From Diplosphaera chodatii (Eukaryota; Chlorophyta; Trebouxiophyceae; Prasiolales; Stichococcaceae), in the NCBI GenBank assembly GCA_032358165.1, contig JAALGY010000033.1:1178001-1242000 (forward strand): a DNA stretch of 64,000 nt. Reading direction: 5' to 3'. Within the stretch, counting starts at the first letter, position 1; every line of letters begins with the position of its first letter. Of the stretch, positions 41,411 through 52,171 are shown in pieces. The position numbers and the translations under genes are program-made. Below the pieces are notes generated by a model. That model made no database searches, was not told where the DNA came from, and saw only the letters and a program-made list of their open reading frames with translations.

Positions 41411-44400
41411 TCAAAATTGCACGTGTACGTCGTGGTCCAGCTTGCTGCTCTGCGGCAGCGTGATGGTCAGGCTGCCACTCGCACTATCGTAGGCATGCTC
41501 AACGCCGCCACCATCCACTGTGATGCACTTCGGCGCCGCATCGGCATACAGCAGGAGTGCGCCATGGCCCTTGACCTGCAAAGCAGTGCTGACAAGCGCA
41601 TTGAGACCTGACACTGGGCAGAGAAGGGTGGCAGCCAAGTACCATTCAGGCTCACAGCTGGGTCCTGCCCCATGAAGTTCTGGCAGGCCCAGCTCATCAA
41701 CCCTTTCACAAGGTGGCCATCTGCTTTCCGCAGGCAAGCACCTGCACGCTGGCCATGGCATCAGAGGAGTCGCCATTGCGACTGGAGTCGCCCGCTGAGA
41801 GCTGGAAGTCCTTCACGGCGCCGCCCGCGTTCATCATGTTGGCCAGGCCCACCGCCGCGACACTGACGCCACCCGCCTGCTGCACCGCCGCCATCGTCAC
41901 AATGGTGCTGCGGCCGGCTGCACATCGACACATGGTCACCTCAGTACCACTGGAACAATTTGCAATTCCACACACTGCCAAATGACCTTGCAGGTTGCCC
42001 TTAAGACTAACGCTGTTCTGGCATGTGACAACCAAATTGTAATGATGCCGAGGCAAGAGTGTGACCTGAGCAGCATGCGACTTGTTAGTGCAATTTGATC
42101 CTGCTACATGTCGGACTCATCGGAATGCAGACTGCATCACGGCACACTCACCCTCCACCCAGACCGGCAGGGTGTCCTCCCGGCCCAGCAGCTGCATCCG
42201 CTGCGTCGCATCATCGTAGGCCACCCACCTGCAGCGCATCGCACGAAGCAGTCTCACGCCTTGATCCCTGCCCGCCTACGTCTGAAGCTTCTCGTGACAG
42301 CCCCGCTGAAGGGGACAGTCCACGCTGGCGCCGTGATCGTGACATCGACAGTGGCAGCAGCCAGGCAGCTGGCGCGGCGGGGCTCACGTGTCGGCGGGGG
42401 AGCCGGCGGCCAGCAGCGGCTCCACGTCGGCGACGCGCACGGTGGTGCCGAGGGGCGGCGGCGTCGCGTCGTGGATCAGGAACTGGCGCTTGCGGCGGGA
42501 CCAGGCCGCGCCCTGCAGGTGGAACACCCCCACCAGCCCCGAGTGCTTGTTCGTGTTCCACACCTGCGCCGGCGTGGCAGCACGGCCGCTCAGAGAAGTG
42601 CGCCTGTGGATTGCCCGATAGCAGCGGCTGTCTCGGCTGTCTCGGGGCCTGATCAGCTGACCTCGATGGATTACGCAGCGGCAGGGACATGTGCCAATCA
42701 GCAGTGGGCACGCGACAGCACACCTTCAGCAGCGACTTGTTGTCACGCAGCGGGTCTCGGAACAGCGAGTCGCGTGTTGGCCGCCCCGGCAGCTGCGCCC
42801 GCAGGATGCTGCCGTCCGGCAGCACCAGCCGTCGCAGCAGCTGCAGGCATTGGCAGGACCGCACATGAGGCAACCATCCTACATTGGGCAGCCATGGTGG
42901 TGCCCCTGCACATGCGCATGGTACAGCAGGAGGATGGCCTACGGTCTGGTAGCCCATGCTCAGGAACAGTGGCGCACGTCAAAGTCATGCTGGCCGGGGT
43001 AGTCGGACACGTAGATGCTGCCGCCGCTGAGCACGCGCGCCGTCGCGTGCAGAACAGCCGCTGGGTGCTTACTGCAATCCGCCACGACATGTCAGTAAGT
43101 GAACCATGCAGATGATGGTGCGCTTGACAGCCAGCAACCACACTATCCAGATGGTTCTGACAGCATGCGACGGTGTCAGCCATTGTACTGCTGGTACAGT
43201 ATGGGCACCTGTGGAACATGTCCCAATCGGGCTGCACGAGTGGTGACAGGAAGAGGCTGAGGAATGCGCAGGCCGAGATGTGCGGCGTGCTGCTGGCTGG
43301 GTCCCGCGGGTAGAAGTCGTCTGAGGCCCGGGCAACCGCTGTGTCTCTCCACCTGCAGCGCCACACAGACATCTCGTGGGTACGAGTCGTGGCAGCAGGA
43401 CGTTCAGCACGTAGTGAGGTATGCTGGACGACGGATGTTGCAAGCTGGTGTGTGACATGGGAAGGTTTAGCATCACAACGACCCTCAGCAAGGCCACAAG
43501 GTATTGAATAGGACGCCAGGCTGCGCGCCTGTAGATGTTCTCGGTGGAGTGGGCCATGCAGTTGATGGCGTGGTTGCCGGGGAAGTGGGTGCGGATGCTG
43601 TCCTCCAGGGCGCCGTGGAAGGCGGCAGCCACCGTGGGCCCGCCCCCGCGCTTGCTGCCCATCAGCCCGATGCCTGCCTGGCAGTCCACCTTCACGCCGC
43701 TTATGCCTGCAGCAGCACAGCACACTGCTGGGCGTCCCGCTCTGTTAGCCACCGGGCCTGAGCGCTCTTGATCCCTGGCGCACATGCACTTGCCGCTCTG
43801 CTACATCATGAAGCACCCACCCACATGGGTTTGACCAGGCAAATAGAAAAAGCATCGTCACAGACCTGCAGACGCGAGGTAGGAGTGCATGTCGCGGTAC
43901 AGGGGTGCTGGGTCGGGCATCATGCCCACCCCCGCGACCACCGCCGGGTTCCACCGCATGCTGGGCTCGATCTCGTACAGCCCATCCGTGCCCTTTGCAA
44001 ACACCAGCTCTGGGCCATACACAGACGTTCCTGCCGACAAACACCACGAGCCTGTTCAGCACTGTGCTCTGGTGTCTGACAAGATGCCAAGCAGGGACAC
44101 AAGTCAAGCAGCGACACATGGTGTGGGCCACCAGCAGTTGGTCCTTGACGAGCCAGCTGACAGTGGCAAAAGACCTGCGGTTAGCCTCACCTGGATCCTC
44201 TACACTGATGCCAGACCAGTAGGCCGGCAGGCCATGCCAGCAGTAGATGTAGTCCACCCCATAGGTTGCTCGCAGGCTGGAAACCACAGACTTCAGGTCC
44301 TCTTCCTCACCCTGCATTGTTTCAGTGTCAATGCATGCTCGATAGCTGGCGCGCCTCTGCCACACAGTAGGTACTCTCAGTGTCCGCTCACCTGGGCCGT

Positions 44401-47400
44401 ACGAATGGGTCAATCTACAAAAGCGTGAACACTCACCGAGTACAGATCATCTGGACCAGCAGCTGGGGATGAGAACTTCGAGTTGGCTTTGACAGATGTC
44501 AGCCGCCGCGTGAAGTCGCCGGACGCTGCGTAAAACTCCAGCAGCATCTCCCTGCGGATCCACAGCCGCGCTCAGGTCGCCTGTCGCTCGGCACAGGCGA
44601 GCTGTGGCAGAGTGACACCAGACTTGCAGTCGCCAGGACGTGCCGCATGGCGGCGCGCACCTGAAGGGGCCCGTGGCCAGGTAGGTGAAGGTGCGCACGG
44701 ACCAGCTCTCCGGGGGCGCGGTGTCCACCACCCACTGGTAGAACTTGAGCAGCCCCACCTCCAGCAGCCCCATCGACAGCCCCGCCAGCCGCTGGAAGAT
44801 GGCGACGATCAGCCTGCACAGCACAGCACGTAGTGCACAATTGAGACCTTGCAATGGTGCAAGCATGCCAGCAAACACCCCGTGCTGTGACTCCCGACAT
44901 CACAACGCCTATCGGTGACCAGAAGCACGACTCACCCGATGATGGGGCCGACCACCCGCTGGCCCGGCCACCGGATGTGGTGGCGCTGCACGGCGGTGCT
45001 GCCGCTGCTCTGTGCCAGGTCCGCGCGCTCCTCGTCAGCCGCCAGGGTGCCCGTCGGCGCCCGCGACTTGGAGCGCACCAGCTGCTCCATGGCCGGCTTC
45101 TTGCCGGGCGTCGGAGCGTCGCCGCTGCCATCCTCCAGGCTGCCGACTGCGCCGTCGCCTGAGGCGTCCTGCGCAAGCAACAGCGGGCTTGTGCACTCAG
45201 TACCCTGTTCAGCAAGCCCGCAGAACGCATGGTGCGTACGCTGGCTGCCCATGGCCGGATGGCACAGGACCCACCATGGAGCTGCGGCTGCGCTTCCGCA
45301 GTGCGGACGGCGGCGGCATCTCGTCATCCGAGTCGTACAGGTCCTCGTTCATGGAGATGCTGGTCATCGTCTCCTTCACTGTCTCCGCAAGCCACTTGCC
45401 CTTCTCACGCCGCTTGTTGTTGCGGATGTTGGCGTGGTACGGCCGCCCCTCGTTGTCTGTCAGCGCCTTCAGCGCCAGGCCTGCACAACAGACACGACGC
45501 ACGGTGACAGCTCCTTGAAGGGGTATGCACAGGTGGCTTTTGCAGGGCGTTCACCTGGCATGTTGGTGGTGCAACAATGAGTGCCATGCCGCCTCAACAA
45601 CCATCCGACAGCTGCACGGACCCAATGTCATGCATTGCTTCGTTCAGGCTGGATCCGCCATGACAGACTACAACGCATCAGCGCACCAGCGGAGGATGAG
45701 GGCGGGATGTCCTTTTTGGCGTCCGCCAGCACCTCGATCTCAGCGCCGAAGTACTCGTCGCTGGCGTCCTGCATCTGCTTCATCTTGGGCATGGAGCGCG
45801 AGGTGGGCGGCATGCGGAAGCGCTTGTCCACGTCCGTGTTCTGCCAGCCGTCGTCGATGATGAGGAAGCGCGGCGGCACGCCCCCCTCCACCAGGGACTC
45901 CAGCCCCTGGTGCAGCCCTGCAATTGCGGTGTCCCGCCACCTGTCACTGTGTGCTCTGGCACCAGCCGCCCACCTTCCACTATTGCAGCAGGCCGTGCGA
46001 CGATGATGCTGCGGCTGTGTGCTTGCTGACATGCATGAACCACGGACAGAGGTGTCCATGACGTGTTGCAGACAGAGCCATGTGCATTTGCAGTGACGCG
46101 CACCTTGCGCAGACACTCGGCTGTAAAAGGCGTCCCATGTGCACCAGCCAAACACATCCAGCGTGGGCGGCAGATGCTTCTCCGTCCGCGGCTTGGCATC
46201 ACCAGAGATTGCGGCCGCGGCCGCGACCGCAGAGTCCACCAGCTCGAAGGGGTCACCCCCTGCCGCCACATACAGCGCCGACTGCCAGCGCTCGCCCAGC
46301 ACGCTGTCATCGCCCGACTCTATCCGCAACAACAGCTTCTCTGCGTCCTCCACGCTGCAAAGCACAAAGGCCCCATGTCAGTTGCGAACAACATGCCCGA
46401 TCTTGTCCATACTTGCTGGGTTCCCACCCCAATGCCAATCAGAAGGGAGTTGGAACCCTTTCCTGGGAAGCTGGTCGCCTATCCCCTCGCCCTGGGGCTA
46501 CACACAAGGGCTACCCTCAAGCCCGAGTCGACAGCTTGGTTCGCATGTTATTTGCAGTACCTTTTCTGGCAGATGATCGTGCGTTGTAACGACGCAACTT
46601 GTATGCAACATGCAGAGCTGGCAGAGACTCGCACGGGAAACAACTCAAGTTCGAATCACATCGTCGGACGAAAGCCTTTGAGCAACCACAGCCACTAGAC
46701 CTGTTTGATTCACGGGGATGGAAGAACTTCCAACGCAAGTTGGCGAGAAGCGTCGTCGCATGTCTGACTTCGGACCCCTGGCAGCTGTGCAGCTGAGCAC
46801 AGAGGCTGACGCAGATGCATCACCAGCAGACATGCTGGCATTCTTCGCAGAACGTGGCAGCCGAGCACACGCCCTGCAGAGAGAGCTCTTGCAGCTACAG
46901 GAGCGTACACAGCAGCAGGCTTCGCAACTGGAAACAGCTGAGCTGCGGCATGCAACGCTGCAGGTAACGCCAGCATGATTGTCTCCATGGCTAGTGCATT
47001 GTTGCACTCCTCAGGAGCAAGCAACAGTCTTTCCCCGTGCAGGCCGAGAACAGCAGGCTAGCAGCTCTGAGCGAGGCCCAGAGCAACCAGGCTGCACAGG
47101 AACGCCGCAAACTGCAGGCAGCTCTGGAGGCTGCGTATAGGCAGACAGCCGAGCTGGCGCGACAGCTCGAGGGCAGCAAGCAGCGTCAGCAGTCTCAGTC
47201 AGGTGAGCATCGGCCCAGCCCTGCCGCCGGCGCCACCAGCAGACACACAGGGCAAGATGGCGCAACAGTCCAGCTGCGAGAAGAGCTGGATCAGCTGCAG
47301 CGCCAACTGCGCCATCAGCGTGAGGAGTCTGAGGAGCTGCGCCGACGGGACGAGCAGGACCTGCACCAGGCTCAGCAGCAGGCTGCAGCCAGTGCGCAGC

Positions 47401-50400
47401 TCTGCAGTCAGCTGCAGCAGCAGCTTGATGGAGCGCAGGAGATGGTGACTGAAGCCAACGCAGCCAAATCAGAGGCAGTGCAGCAAGCCGCAGCAGCTGA
47501 GCAGCGGGCGACGGCTGCCGAGAGCCTGGCAGCCAACACCAGCAACGATGAGGTCAGACACCCTGATAACGCCCCAGCTCAACTGTTGCCGGTGTCCAGC
47601 AGCGATCAGGCCTGACCAAGCCGCTGGCAGTGCGCAACACTGCTTTTGTCTTCTGCAACAGGAACTGCGGAATCTGCGGGAGGAGCTGGCTGCATCAGAG
47701 CAGCTCGTACGCGAGGCGCAGCGGCTGAAGGAGTATGTCAGCAATGCTGAGATCCTTAAGGAGAAGCTGCATGCCGAGCAGCAGCGGGCGCAGCGTGCCG
47801 AGGCCGCACTGGCAGCTGCCAACGACGCTAAAGCAGACATCTCAGCGCTGCAGGCACAGCTGGCTCACTGGCAGGAGTTCTACAAGGTGTGCGACCTGAA
47901 ATCTTCAATCTGCCAGTAATTTTAGTCTCAGCTTGTATGACTACAAACGTGTTGCCCTGACACACTTCCCTGAAACCGAGCACAATTTGCTATCCTGCAT
48001 GTGCAGGGCACAGCAGATGTCCAAAAGCCGGAGGACCTACTGCACCGGCTGCAGCAGCTGCAGCAGGACACCCTCGCCCAAAATGAGCGACTGGCACAAG
48101 CGTCCGCAGCAGCCAGCAGCCTGCAAGGTGGGCTGCGCTGCTACCAGCACACAGCTTGCATGCCCTACTATCAGGGCACTGGTCTGGCCCTATCATGGTG
48201 AGCGCCACGCAGGAGGTGTCGCTGTTTGATGGCAGGTCAGCTGCAAGCAGCGGAGGCACGGCAACAGGAGCACGAGGGGGTACTTGCAGCAGCACATGCG
48301 GCTCGCGATGAGGCGGACGCGGCCGCAGCACGGTTGGAGCGACAGCTGGCAGTGCTGGGCAAGGAGCGTGATGGCCTGAAGCGCATCTTGGCCTCCTACC
48401 AGCAGGACGCAGCCCGTGCGCACACTGCTCTGGCTTATGTCTGATGCCCAGAAACTCTTTTCATGACACTCACTCTGTGCCATACTGAATTTGTCAACAG
48501 GCTACTTTGTGCTGCAACGATTTCACGGCCTCGACCATTGTGCTGTAGGCTCTGATGTGGAGAACGGCGGTGCATTGGGTGCAGCGCGCACACAAGCGCT
48601 GGAAGGAGCGCTGCAGGCGCTCCAAAAGGAGCTGAACCTGGTCAGTCCCGACGGAGTGCCGAGCTGCAATGCATCAGGTTGCCTGTCGCCCATTCACCAA
48701 ACGGTCCAAACATCCCGGTGCCTATATCCCATGGACGGTGCTGAGCTCGATAGCCCCGAACAACACATGCCTTGCAGGCCGAGGCTGCGCTGAAGGCCAA
48801 GGGCGAGGAGCTCAGCTCTCAGCAGGCAGAGGCTGCAGCGGAGCGGCAGCGTGTGAAGGCTGCCGAGGCGGCTGCACAAAATCTCGAGGCGGAGGCCGAG
48901 CGCCTGAGCGAGCAGGTTGCAAGCATGCAGGTGTGATGACACATCAACTGACTGAGTAATGCTTGCTTGCACACGCTGCGCTGCAGGCATGCTCAGCTGC
49001 GGCGCTGTCACCCTGACAGCAAGCACATCCCACACAGGCGCGCCTGGGCAGGGGCGAGTTCAACCCCGAGACCACGCGTGTGCTGCACTATGTGCGCAAC
49101 CCCGAGGCCGAGGCGCAGCGCCAGCTGGCAGACACACACCTTGCTGAGCTGGAGGCTGAAAACAAGGTGTTGCTGGGAAGCTTGTGCTAATTTGTGGCTC
49201 GAGCACAGTGTGGACTGCGGCACCACTGATATAATAGCGCCAGTCAACTTGAACGGCCGACGTCTGCAACCGTGCTGACGCAGGCCATGCGAACACAGCT
49301 GCAGCAGATGGAGCAGCAGCAGCGGCAGCAACCACCTGACGCAGAGGGCCTTCCCGCTGCGTCTGGCAGCCAGCCTGGCATGGCCAAGGCGCTAGCCGAT
49401 GCCGAAGTCACCATCACCAGACGCAAGGTGCATGCCAGAGCCGCTGCTGCTGCACAGGGTATCTGACAGCCTCTCGAGGCTGCTTCCAAGCCCCTGACCC
49501 GTGTGCCACATGCTGACCTGTTGCTTACGCGCCCTGCCGACCGCCTGCACGTAGCTGGCGGAGGCAGAGAAGCGGGAGGCGCGCCTCAAGGAGGTGTTCA
49601 ACCGCCAGATCGTCAACTTCCGGGAGGCGTGCTTCTTCCTGTTCGGCTACCGCGTCGACATGGCGTCAAAAGCCACCGCTGCTGCGGGCGCTGGCGCGCC
49701 CGCCGCAACCTTCGTGCTGACACCCCAGGTACTGCTGTCGCGGCACGGAGCCACCCACAGTGCATGCTGTCACGAAGTGACACCAGCGATATTGCACAAT
49801 GTTGCAATTCGTCACATGTTCCTGCCGCAGCACGGCGATGAGCGCACGCAGCTGCTGTTCGCGATGAAGCCCAAGGGCTCGGGCATGGAGCTGCTGCCAA
49901 GCGAGTATGTGGCCAAGCGGCTGAAGACGGAGGTGGAGACATTCATAGTGCGGTTCAAATCCATCCCCGCATTCACCGCGAACCTCACGATGGAGAACTT
50001 CCAGAAGCACACCAGCAGCTGACGCTCCCCATGAAAGGGGTAGAGTGTGGACGCTTGCGGACCATCTGTGTGGCCAACCGCCAGCACTGCCCTGCTATTT
50101 TGCTGCGAACAGCAGAGCTGTTGAATATATTAAACTGATCCGAAGCCGTTGGAAACCGTCTACGAGGCTAAATCAGTTGGATTTTGTGGAGTCACACCTC
50201 GGCGGTCGTAGGGTGGCACGGAAGGTGCTGCTGTCAATGAGCGGCAGCAGGATGGCGTAGGGGCCGCCGTCCTGGAGCTCCAGCAGCATGAACTGCGTCT
50301 CTGGGGGCAGGTCTCCTGGCTCCGTGCCCCACTCCGGCGTCATCCACCAGAGCTTCTTGCGTGCTGCCGCCAGGAACCGGGTGAATGTCACCTGCCATAC

Positions 50401-51007
50401 ACCGCACCACAGCAGAGCATCATGCAGGTCCCATCTACTGACGGCGCGCATTGCCACAACAATCGAACGTGTAGAGCACGTGCAGCTTGGCATAGTGCGA
50501 ACAGCTGCTCATAGCATGAACAGCTGCAGGCTCTGCCAACACTGGGAGATGTCAGCAGACCTTGCCGATGGCAGTATCCACCATGGACTTGGCGCCTTCC
50601 GCACTGCGAAAACCCAGCACCAGCCCGTGCTGCTGCCTTTCTGACACGAATGCTTGGCGGCTGAGCTGACTGATGATGGGCAACTGCGTGTTGGCAATGA
50701 GGACATCCCCGCCGCGTTCCTGCAGAGCAGACCGTGAAGCGACTGCATGGCACACGTTCGTTTGCCAATCCAACCCAAGTCGTGCAGGCAGAAGCCTCCG
50801 CGGGCCACCAGTCGCCAGGGTCCACTGCAGACGTTGGCGAGGGGACACAGGTGCATGCATGTCAGCATACGCTGCTGACAGCAAGCCAACCCGCACCTCG
50901 ACCGCGAGCAGCTCCCTAGGTGCTGGCCTGGTCTTCTGGATTTGCTTTGGATCCGCGCGTACCACATCGCTAGCGGGTGCTGAGGCTGTGGCTGCGATTG
51001 ACCCCAT
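41411..51007 (-). CDS. Sip1/raffinose-synthase-like galactosidase (GH36 relatives) with large insertion; hosts MAD1 in an intron
   Basis: Family of alkaline alpha-galactosidases and raffinose synthases. ATG 51007 starts [16 protein letters not shown]. Exons to 50198 carry [39 protein letters not shown] and [20 protein letters not shown]. After a 3843-bp intron the frame resumes with [32 protein letters not shown] and [20 protein letters not shown]. Later exons give [40 protein letters not shown] (nucleophilic Asp in KVDCQ), [11 protein letters not shown] (acid/base region), [50 protein letters not shown] and [20 protein letters not shown]. About 215 residues are inserted between the DDGWQ and [14 protein letters not shown] regions. 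One intron beginning near 43528 uses a GC donor. Whether it hydrolyses or transfers galactose cannot be told. Confidence 0.9.
46355..50197 (-). other. 3843-bp intron of the galactosidase gene containing MAD1
   Basis: Donor CCGAG|gtgtga (exon end 50198) follows TFRATLRPP. Acceptor ctttgcag|CGTGGAGG (exon start 46354) precedes [16 protein letters not shown]. Joining AG to C makes one Ser codon and keeps the frame; the two exons encode neighbouring parts of the Sip1 domain in the correct order. Most introns here are about 70-250 bp, so this one is an outlier, and 3305 bp of it is the MAD1 gene on the opposite strand. Confidence 0.85.
46718..50022 (+). CDS. MAD1: Spindle assembly checkpoint protein MAD1
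   Basis: MAD1 recruits MAD2 to unattached kinetochores. ATG 46718 starts [19 protein letters not shown]. Nearly all of the middle is coiled coil (for example [50 protein letters not shown]). It includes [20 protein letters not shown], which resembles the conserved MAD1 block before the MAD2-binding region. Then come [20 protein letters not shown], typical of MAD1, and the C-terminal RWD-type domain: [20 protein letters not shown] followed by [26 protein letters not shown] and [19 protein letters not shown] end the protein at 50022. A canonical MAD2-binding sequence was not pinned down by eye. All exons lie inside one intron of the opposite-strand galactosidase gene, with 363 bp and 175 bp to the host exons. 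Confidence 0.93.
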
Positions 51008-51811
51008 TCGCAATGGCCCGCGCTGTACCAACGGCGCTCTGTGTGAGCACACCCTCCGCTGCAAAGACCTGCAGGGCAATGCGAGTGACACCGTTGTGGT
51101 TGGCAGACGACCAGCCTGCTGTCAGCCAGCTCAACTGAGTGGTGCCGAGCTGCAAGCTGGTGCCTGCGGCGGGCCAGGTACAGTGCAGTTGCCTGGCGCC
51201 ATACCTGCTGTCCCGCGACCCTGCGAGCTGCCGCTGAACCCCAGGGCACGCCCGCTGACACCTATACACTACCTGCACCTGACTAAACACTGGCCGCAGC
51301 GTGAACGCGCTGCACATATTCCCGTGTTTGCCAATCCACCCAGTTGCAGTTGTCAACCTGACAGTCGCATGCTACTGCCCCGCGATTGCATCACTTTCGA
51401 TCTCGCGTGGCGCAAGCTGACTTCACTTGTGAAGTTGCAAACACAAGGTGACCGCTGGTCCCTGTCAGCAACATGGCAGACACTCTGTCGTGCAAAACCC
51501 GCCCGGCTTGACCATGATCAGCAACCGTTGACGCGCCAGCTCAATGCCGCAGTTGCGCTCAAACTTACGTGCTTTCATCCTCGTTTGCTCACGTACAGCT
51601 TCGCGGGATCTTCGCTCAAGCTGACACACAGCTTTAGCTGGCTGCCGCCGTGGCATTCTGTAGGCGGGGTGGCAACTGTCAAAGGCAGTCGTATCAGGAG
51701 CGCATGCTCGTGAAAAGCTGTCACACTATGTTGAACTGACAGTGAGCTGCATCGAGGACAGCTGCTGCTGGGAGCGAGGCCCCAGGTCTTCATGCTCGCA
51801 ACTCCCTCGGC
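51008..51811. other. Divergent promoter region, galactosidase / prefoldin 4
   Basis: About 800 bp between opposing start codons. In the host gene's frame the sequence stays open somewhat upstream of 51007 (SLQRRVCSHRAPLVQRGPLR), so a longer N-terminus such as a transit peptide is possible. No TATA box, repeat or extra gene recognised. Confidence 0.4.
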
Positions 51812-52171
51812 ATGGCGCTGCAGTTTGGACCGGAGGACCAGCGGAACATCAACACCTTTAGCAAGCTCAACACACAGCTGCACGAGCTCAATGCGATGAT
51901 GTCCGTACAGCAGTCGAATGTGGACGATCTCGAGGACGCCAGCAACGAGCTGATGTTGGTGGACGACGAGCAGGTCATGTTCAGCTTGGGGGAGGGCTTC
52001 GTTCAGACACCGGTTCCTGATGCGGAGGAGAAAATAGCAGCAGCCTCAGAACAGGCCCAGCAGGAGCTTGACAATCTGAAGAGCCAGATAAAGGAGGTAG
52101 AAGGCAAGATGGCCGAACTGAAGAAAGTCCTGTATGCCAAGTTCGGCGACTCGATCAACCTTGAGGAGTAA
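51812..52171 (+). CDS. PFDN4: Prefoldin subunit 4
   Basis: Complete 119-residue beta-type prefoldin subunit in one exon. Prefoldin is the hexameric cytosolic chaperone that hands unfolded actin and tubulin to the CCT chaperonin. The N-terminal helix (PEDQRNINTFSKLNTQLHEL), the link NVDDLEDASNELMLVDDEQV, the hairpin region FSLGEGFVQTPV and the C-terminal helix ending MAELKKVLYAKFGDSINLEE match PFD4 along the full length; the ending is diagnostic. There is no intron in this short gene. It lies head to head with the galactosidase gene and 490 bp before the GOST-like gene. Confidence 0.95.
   Translation: MALQFGPEDQRNINTFSKLNTQLHELNAMMSVQQSNVDDLEDASNELMLVDDEQVMFSLGEGFVQTPVPDAEEKIAAASEQAQQELDNLKSQIKEVEGKMAELKKVLYAKFGDSINLEE

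Follow-up and report, generated by a model that had tools for sequence, protein, structure and literature searches.

In a 64,000-nucleotide stretch of the genome of the green alga Diplosphaera chodatii (contig JAALGY010000033.1, positions 1,178,001 to 1,242,000; hereafter the window), the complete coding part of a MAD1 gene lies on the plus strand inside the third intron of a raffinose synthase/Sip1-type gene, its host, which runs on the minus strand. The same arrangement is present at a second, diverged locus of this genome. Both gene models, their conservation between the two copies and an intron position shared with a paralog are observed; from the records of other species we infer the age of the arrangement and the splicing of the host in relatives. 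Taken together, these data make it likely that the two genes form an old antiparallel nested pair, in which the host is spliced, MAD1 has its own promoter, the nesting arose before Trebouxiophyceae and Chlorophyceae split, lock-in has kept it in place, and the alga Coccomyxa elongata has lost it. The nesting is thus probably ancient, and hidden in public sequence records by split gene models.

Gene models at the nested locus

The source genome comprises 85.6 Mb in 55 contigs, and the window locus lies on contig C27. We assembled the exons of both genes manually from the window sequence and then tested the resulting models by reading frame, Pfam profiles and solved protein chains (Table 1). The spliced host reads from 51007 to 41411 as 1021 codons without an internal stop, and spans 9.6 kb. 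Its introns measure 106–234 bp each, except for intron 3 with 3843 bp, which runs from a donor CCGAG/gtgtga (50198/50197) to an acceptor gcag/CGTGG (46355/46354); splicing across it rebuilds a Ser codon (AG/C, phase 2). The limits and length of this intron, its donor and acceptor, the rebuilt codon and the kept frame had all been read in the same way in an initial annotation of the window, and our splice models show each of them to be correct.

The host matches PF05691 (Pfam) with E=7.9e-181 in two stretches, the best of them to profile positions 260–749 of 750, and its relative P0001 matches the solved plant chain 7exf_B. By profile, then, the host is a member of the raffinose synthase/Sip1 family, of which the sequence leaves the substrate (raffinose synthase versus alpha-galactosidase) unsettled. 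The spliced guest matches PF05557 (Pfam) with E=4.1e-51 over profile positions 7–661 of 661. Solved chains named MAD1 match it as well: 1go4_E at residues 481–563, and 4dzo_A and 7b1f_B at residues 593–719; we take 1go4 to be the Mad2-binding part of MAD1. The guest is a MAD1 family member over the full profile, with a predicted checkpoint role. A search with NCBIfam found nothing useful.

Table 1. Features of the nested locus and its flank in window coordinates; C26 is the contig of the second copy.
Feature	Position	Strand	Details
Host gene, coding part, raffinose synthase/Sip1 type	41411..51007	-	19 exons, 1021 amino acids
Host exon 1, with start codon	50897..51007	-	aligned in C26 and at the P0001 start
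Host exon 2	50561..50719	-	splice model and C26 alignment
Host exon 3, last ahead of MAD1	50198..50391	-	ends in phase 2; splice model and C26
Host intron 3, holding MAD1	46355..50197	-	3843 bp (C26 copy: 3858 bp)
Host exon 4, first past MAD1	46104..46354	-	splice model and C26
Host exons 5-19	41411..45917	-	splice model and C26
MAD1, coding part	46718..50022	+	11 exons, 721 amino acids
MAD1 exons 1-4	46718-46963, 47043-47552, 47662-47886, 48007-48127	+	splice model
MAD1 exons 5-8	48236-48415, 48549-48640, 48778-48930, 49038-49166	+	splice model
MAD1 exons 9-11	49284-49427, 49555-49728, 49831-50022	+	splice model
Stretch from host exon 4 to MAD1 start	46355..46717	+	363 bp; putative MAD1 promoter site
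Stretch from MAD1 stop to host donor	50023..50197	+	175 bp
Prefoldin-subunit gene	51812-52171		divergent from host; PF01920

A diverged second copy preserves the arrangement

The second locus, on contig C26, is colinear with the window in three pieces that are 82.3, 77.0 and 78.2% identical, introns counted in. Aligned base by base, it holds all 19 host exons and all 11 MAD1 exons in frame, with GT..AG ends on each of the 18 host and 10 MAD1 introns. There, as in the window, the MAD1 coding part falls wholly inside one host intron on the opposite strand. A MAD1-family search of the source genome gave five exon matches, all at these two nested loci. Since the C26 copy keeps every exon in frame along with its splice sites, the nesting is not a matter of chance. 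A misjoin that placed MAD1 inside the host, or an error of annotation, would have to be entertained for data drawn from an assembly; two diverged loci on different contigs, each of them nested, and linkage of the two genes in other genomes too make such an artefact exceedingly improbable.

Between the two copies the proteins are 96.3% (host) and 92.9% (MAD1) identical. The ratio of nonsynonymous to synonymous substitution (dN/dS), calculated by the Nei-Gojobori method with our own script, was 0.072 for host exons 1–3, 0.080 for exons 4–19 and 0.127 for MAD1; reading the host in the two wrong frames gave 2.0 and 4.9. Low values in all three parts point to purifying selection on both halves of the host and on MAD1, and because exons 1–3 are constrained like the rest, the part upstream of MAD1 is no dead fragment.

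Of the 18 host introns in the window, 17 open with GT and the remaining one opens with GC. This GC-AG intron is found in one copy: host intron 12 (43353–43528) starts with gcgcgc in the window and with GT in C26.

This genome seems to contain two diverged chromosome sets: C27 and C26 are colinear near the host, two further contigs, C13 and C53, show colinearity over 9.5 kb at 77.6%, and the prefoldin gene next to the host has exactly two matches in the genome, the second at 94%. The sets possibly reflect hybridity or an ancient doubling of the genome.

Probable splicing of the host across MAD1

We found three intron-free relatives in which host exons 3 and 4 are joined. P0001 (1019 amino acids, 92.3% identical to the host) occupies a single contig of 3724 bases and P0002 (1020 amino acids, 71.3% identical) a single contig of 4036 bases, and P0013 (1176 amino acids, longest contig 3791) reads through the exon 3/exon 4 junction. 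Contigs of 3724 and 4036 bases are far shorter than the 9.6-kb window gene, which suggests that they are spliced products, provided that the relatives share its gene structure. A relative therefore probably splices across intron 3. A short model, P0166 (longest contig 31,757 bases), ends at the junction; it is identical to P0013 over the piece compared (93.2% over 222 residues, counting differing first residues), so that P0013 and P0166 look like complementary DNA and genomic DNA of one species.

Many algae have public models that imply two genes, with exons 1–3 coding for a short protein of their own, or an early-terminated isoform, and exons 4–19 for a separate enzyme. We regard this as very unlikely: P0001, P0002 and P0013 unite both parts at full length, the donor, acceptor and phase of intron 3 are preserved in both copies of the locus, and the Pfam profile shows both parts in one chain in plant enzymes. 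A short host isoform may exist alongside the full-length one. The claim of the initial annotation, a complete MAD1 nested antisense in a Sip1-type intron, holds, and gains from the diverged C26 copy and the spliced-looking relatives. It had also considered that the sequence upstream of MAD1 might be a separate 5' fragment, which is not what we see: exons 1–3 evolve under the same constraint as the rest, and the intron-free relatives join them to exon 4.

Split gene models in other green algae

The closest named matches to the host gene come from green algae, among them Coccomyxa elongata and Myrmecia bisecta, both members of the Trebouxiophyceae. We used the N-terminal 155 amino acids of the host as a query and examined the best 120 of 217 matches, each blasted against the full host; this search could return only proteins of ~85–271 amino acids with the N-terminal profile. 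In 107 of these 120 short models the alignment to the host ends at residues 152–155, the exon-3 donor; 12 others continue to 157–208, and one ends at 91. Metagenome-type sources, in which single exons were perhaps called genes, account for many of the 120, which therefore carry little weight. Among the short models with an NCBI, UniRef or EukProt source, homology ends at the junction in 25/25: 19 of these models end ≤3 residues from it, and six after 7–17 further residues. The next intron, at residue 239, falls within the size limit of the search, and none of the 25 ends there.

The 25 models come from 17 named genomes: two Trebouxia, Apatococcus lobatus, Gonium pectorale, Symbiochloris irregularis, Sanguina aurantia, Edaphochlamys debaryana, Chlorella variabilis, three Micractinium, Chromochloris zofingiensis, a Scenedesmus, Tetradesmus obliquus, Botryococcus braunii, Chlamydomonas sp. 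UWO 241 and C. eustigma (the names Chromochloris and Botryococcus were taken from the codes Chrzof and Botrbrau). When we compared the short models with the host and with its paralog type, the host type was nearer in 22/24, and 15 named algae were clearly nearer to it. The complementary pieces exist as well: C-terminal models without the first part align from residue 158 (P0006, Myrmecia bisecta), 162 (P0029), 164 (P0025) and 166 (P0003). A gene finder that does not allow genes to overlap would break off the host at MAD1, and this would account for such uniform stubs.

Across numerous green algae, the public models P0159–P0263 and P0006 apparently divide one conserved enzyme gene at intron 3, leaving a stub and a C-terminal piece.

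Linkage of MAD1 to the sugar gene in other algae

A search for MAD1 gave 38 matches, of which 35 with a known contig size were compared with the contigs that hold pieces of the sugar gene. In 7/35, the MAD1 match and a sugar-gene piece lie on contigs of exactly equal size, which we took as a shared contig: Myrmecia bisecta (5,582,648), Micractinium tetrahymenae (4,329,782), Edaphochlamys debaryana (605,484), Symbiochloris irregularis (266,232), and a further three of 419,357, 76,731 and 58,520. A rough control, which counted sizes 1–59 bases apart on contigs >5 kb, gave only three pairs, so that far less than one exact match is expected by chance. Two of the seven have consecutive locus tags (HYH03_012420/012421 in Edaphochlamys and ABPG75_006414/006413 in Micractinium tetrahymenae). 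An eighth linked pair, from EukProt, is likewise consecutive: P0137 scaffold1.g5609 is MAD1, and P0178 scaffold1.g5610 is the sugar stub. The linked algae belong to two classes, Edaphochlamys to the Chlorophyceae and Micractinium, Symbiochloris and Myrmecia to the Trebouxiophyceae. With regard to related algae, which the initial annotation had proposed to check for the pair, gene records of several thus indicate the same pairing in the same intron; Coccomyxa elongata departs from it.

A number of observations weigh against an ancient, widely shared nesting. Firstly, in Coccomyxa elongata the host-type gene is unsplit (P0005, contig 3,061,597) and MAD1 (P0122) lies on another contig (2,614,173); in Tetraselmis, whose place in the tree is unsure, the locus tags of the two genes are far apart (P0021, TSEL_013640; P0138, TSEL_025249). 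Secondly, the models of Volvox reticuliferus (P0026) and Bryopsis (P0011) are unsplit, the Botryococcus stub is nearer to the paralog type and that of Apatococcus is tied, and the shortness of P0003 could reflect a partial contig or the choice of start. Thirdly, the short-model set locates the ends of short models and is no measure of how frequent splitting is. Fourthly, the N-terminal part, MAD1 and the C-terminal part were found together in no other species, where nesting is deduced from split models and linkage. Finally, orthology of the host type across the two classes is likely, not firm: in a 43-protein tree, the fork uniting host-type genes of the chlorophycean side with those of trebouxiophytes has a support of 89/90, below the starred level. 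The remaining MAD1 matches stand outside this count, a host-type sugar gene of the same source not having been recognised among the records listed.

Two other candidates, Nannochloris (P0035) and Coccomyxa subellipsoidea (P0019), were dropped as counter-examples: their sugar genes do not group with the host in the tree, where P0035 has a long branch and an unsure place, and are therefore silent on the host type. Scanning viral contigs and prokaryote genome contigs with the MAD1 alignment revealed no relatives.

These observations bear on whether MAD1 is nested in this lineage only, with split models and linkage elsewhere reflecting mere neighbourhood or independent insertions. Outside the source genome the arrangement is suggested by gene records and not by gene order and strand, and the unlinked genes of Coccomyxa elongata and Tetraselmis, like the support of that fork, lean the same way. 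By contrast, 25 of 25 short models end at one codon region, the C-terminal models begin just past the same point, and the two genes share seven contigs of exactly equal size and show three sets of consecutive gene numbers. On balance, we consider a nesting confined to this lineage unlikely.

Origin and retention of the nesting

Two raffinose-synthase paralogs of the source genome, on contigs C13 and C53, belong to the same family as the host and fall outside its group in the tree. Both have an intron at the codon corresponding to that of host intron 3, with its phase unchanged; it measures 116 and 115 bp, respectively, and is free of any guest. Because a paralog carries a same-position, same-phase intron of ~115 bp, host intron 3 seems to predate the nesting of MAD1. 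Ten introns interrupt the nested MAD1 itself, so that it probably entered as DNA and is unlikely to be a retrocopy.

These data are consistent with a history in which MAD1 entered, as DNA, a short intron that was already there, at a time before Trebouxiophyceae and Chlorophyceae diverged. RNA polymerase would transcribe the host straight through MAD1, and splicing out the 3.8-kb intron would discard the antisense MAD1 stretch; the MAD1 promoter would reside in the 363 bp that separate host exon 4 from the MAD1 ATG. The pair would have been retained by lock-in, as freeing either gene would need a clean rearrangement, hardly possible without harm, and the arrangement would later have been lost in Coccomyxa elongata.

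Retention could instead reflect regulatory coupling, in which host transcription restrains MAD1, or vice versa, and so ties the sugar or stress state to mitosis. The initial annotation had made a similar suggestion, that transcription of the two genes through each other may cause interference and a link to the cell cycle. The antisense layout and its apparently long retention are what this idea has in its favour. The stretches between the two genes are 76.0% (363 bp, 46355–46717) and 64.2% (175 bp, 50023–50197) identical to C26; host introns range from 56.9 to 82.7%. Both stretches thus fall inside the range of host introns, with nothing to suggest a control element under unusual constraint, and Coccomyxa elongata manages without nesting. 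Coupling as the reason for retention is therefore doubtful. The fuller version, that MAD1 has stood antisense in this same intron since before the two classes split and was kept as transcription of the sugar gene restrains it, with stress or carbon status tuning the checkpoint, strikes us as equally improbable.

Antiparallel nested pairs are a known kind of overlap. Overlapping gene pairs are described as poorly conserved across Metazoa; a comparison of five animal genomes found a single overlapping cluster conserved between worm and human and two conserved between fly and human, each of them nested and antiparallel, and between human and mouse 51.97% of nested antiparallel pairs were retained, the highest of the classes (PMC2330155). 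The closest known case is TIMP inside synapsin in animals, a pair described as kept across animals with the exception of nematodes (PMC2825198). Like MAD1 and its host, this is an antiparallel coding gene in the intron of an unrelated gene, kept over distant species and lost in one lineage (PMC2825198, PMC2330155). It differs in its genes and kingdom, and in that the TIMPs occupy a conserved place in the protein but sit in different introns; a locus may carry more than one TIMP, and there are TIMPs outside synapsin, whereas the MAD1 matches here are at nested loci only. 2mit inside timeless2 of Drosophila is also an opposite-direction gene in another gene's intron, in an animal, with other genes and studied experimentally (PMC3786989), and the LRRTM genes within alpha-catenin genes are nested pairs with traced origin and loss, in vertebrates and again with other genes (PMC3933685). 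Our search of the open-licence literature by title and start of the abstract, part of it on nested genes generally, found no paper on a MAD1-in-raffinose-synthase pair.

If our reading of an old nested pair is right, the pair would represent a long-conserved nested overlap among green algae whose guest is a core checkpoint gene. The nesting would further account for the piecemeal annotation of a conserved algal enzyme in many public genomes, to the detriment of orthology tables and work on the enzyme. Because Coccomyxa elongata apparently lives without the nesting, the algae would offer a natural test of passive lock-in versus antisense regulation.

Polyadenylation signals and flanking sequence

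TGTAA is the usual algal polyadenylation signal. We sought one for MAD1 and found zero TGTAA on the plus strand from the MAD1 stop (50023) to 52500; the 3' end of MAD1 could thus run into host exons 3–1. On the host strand of intron 3 there are 0 TGTAA versus 0.94 expected from 500 simulated sequences, too few to call a depletion.

Upstream of the host start, ~800 bp (51008–51811) separate it from the divergent prefoldin-subunit gene. This stretch is 84.5% identical to C26, above every host intron, and is possibly a shared two-way promoter of the host and the prefoldin gene.

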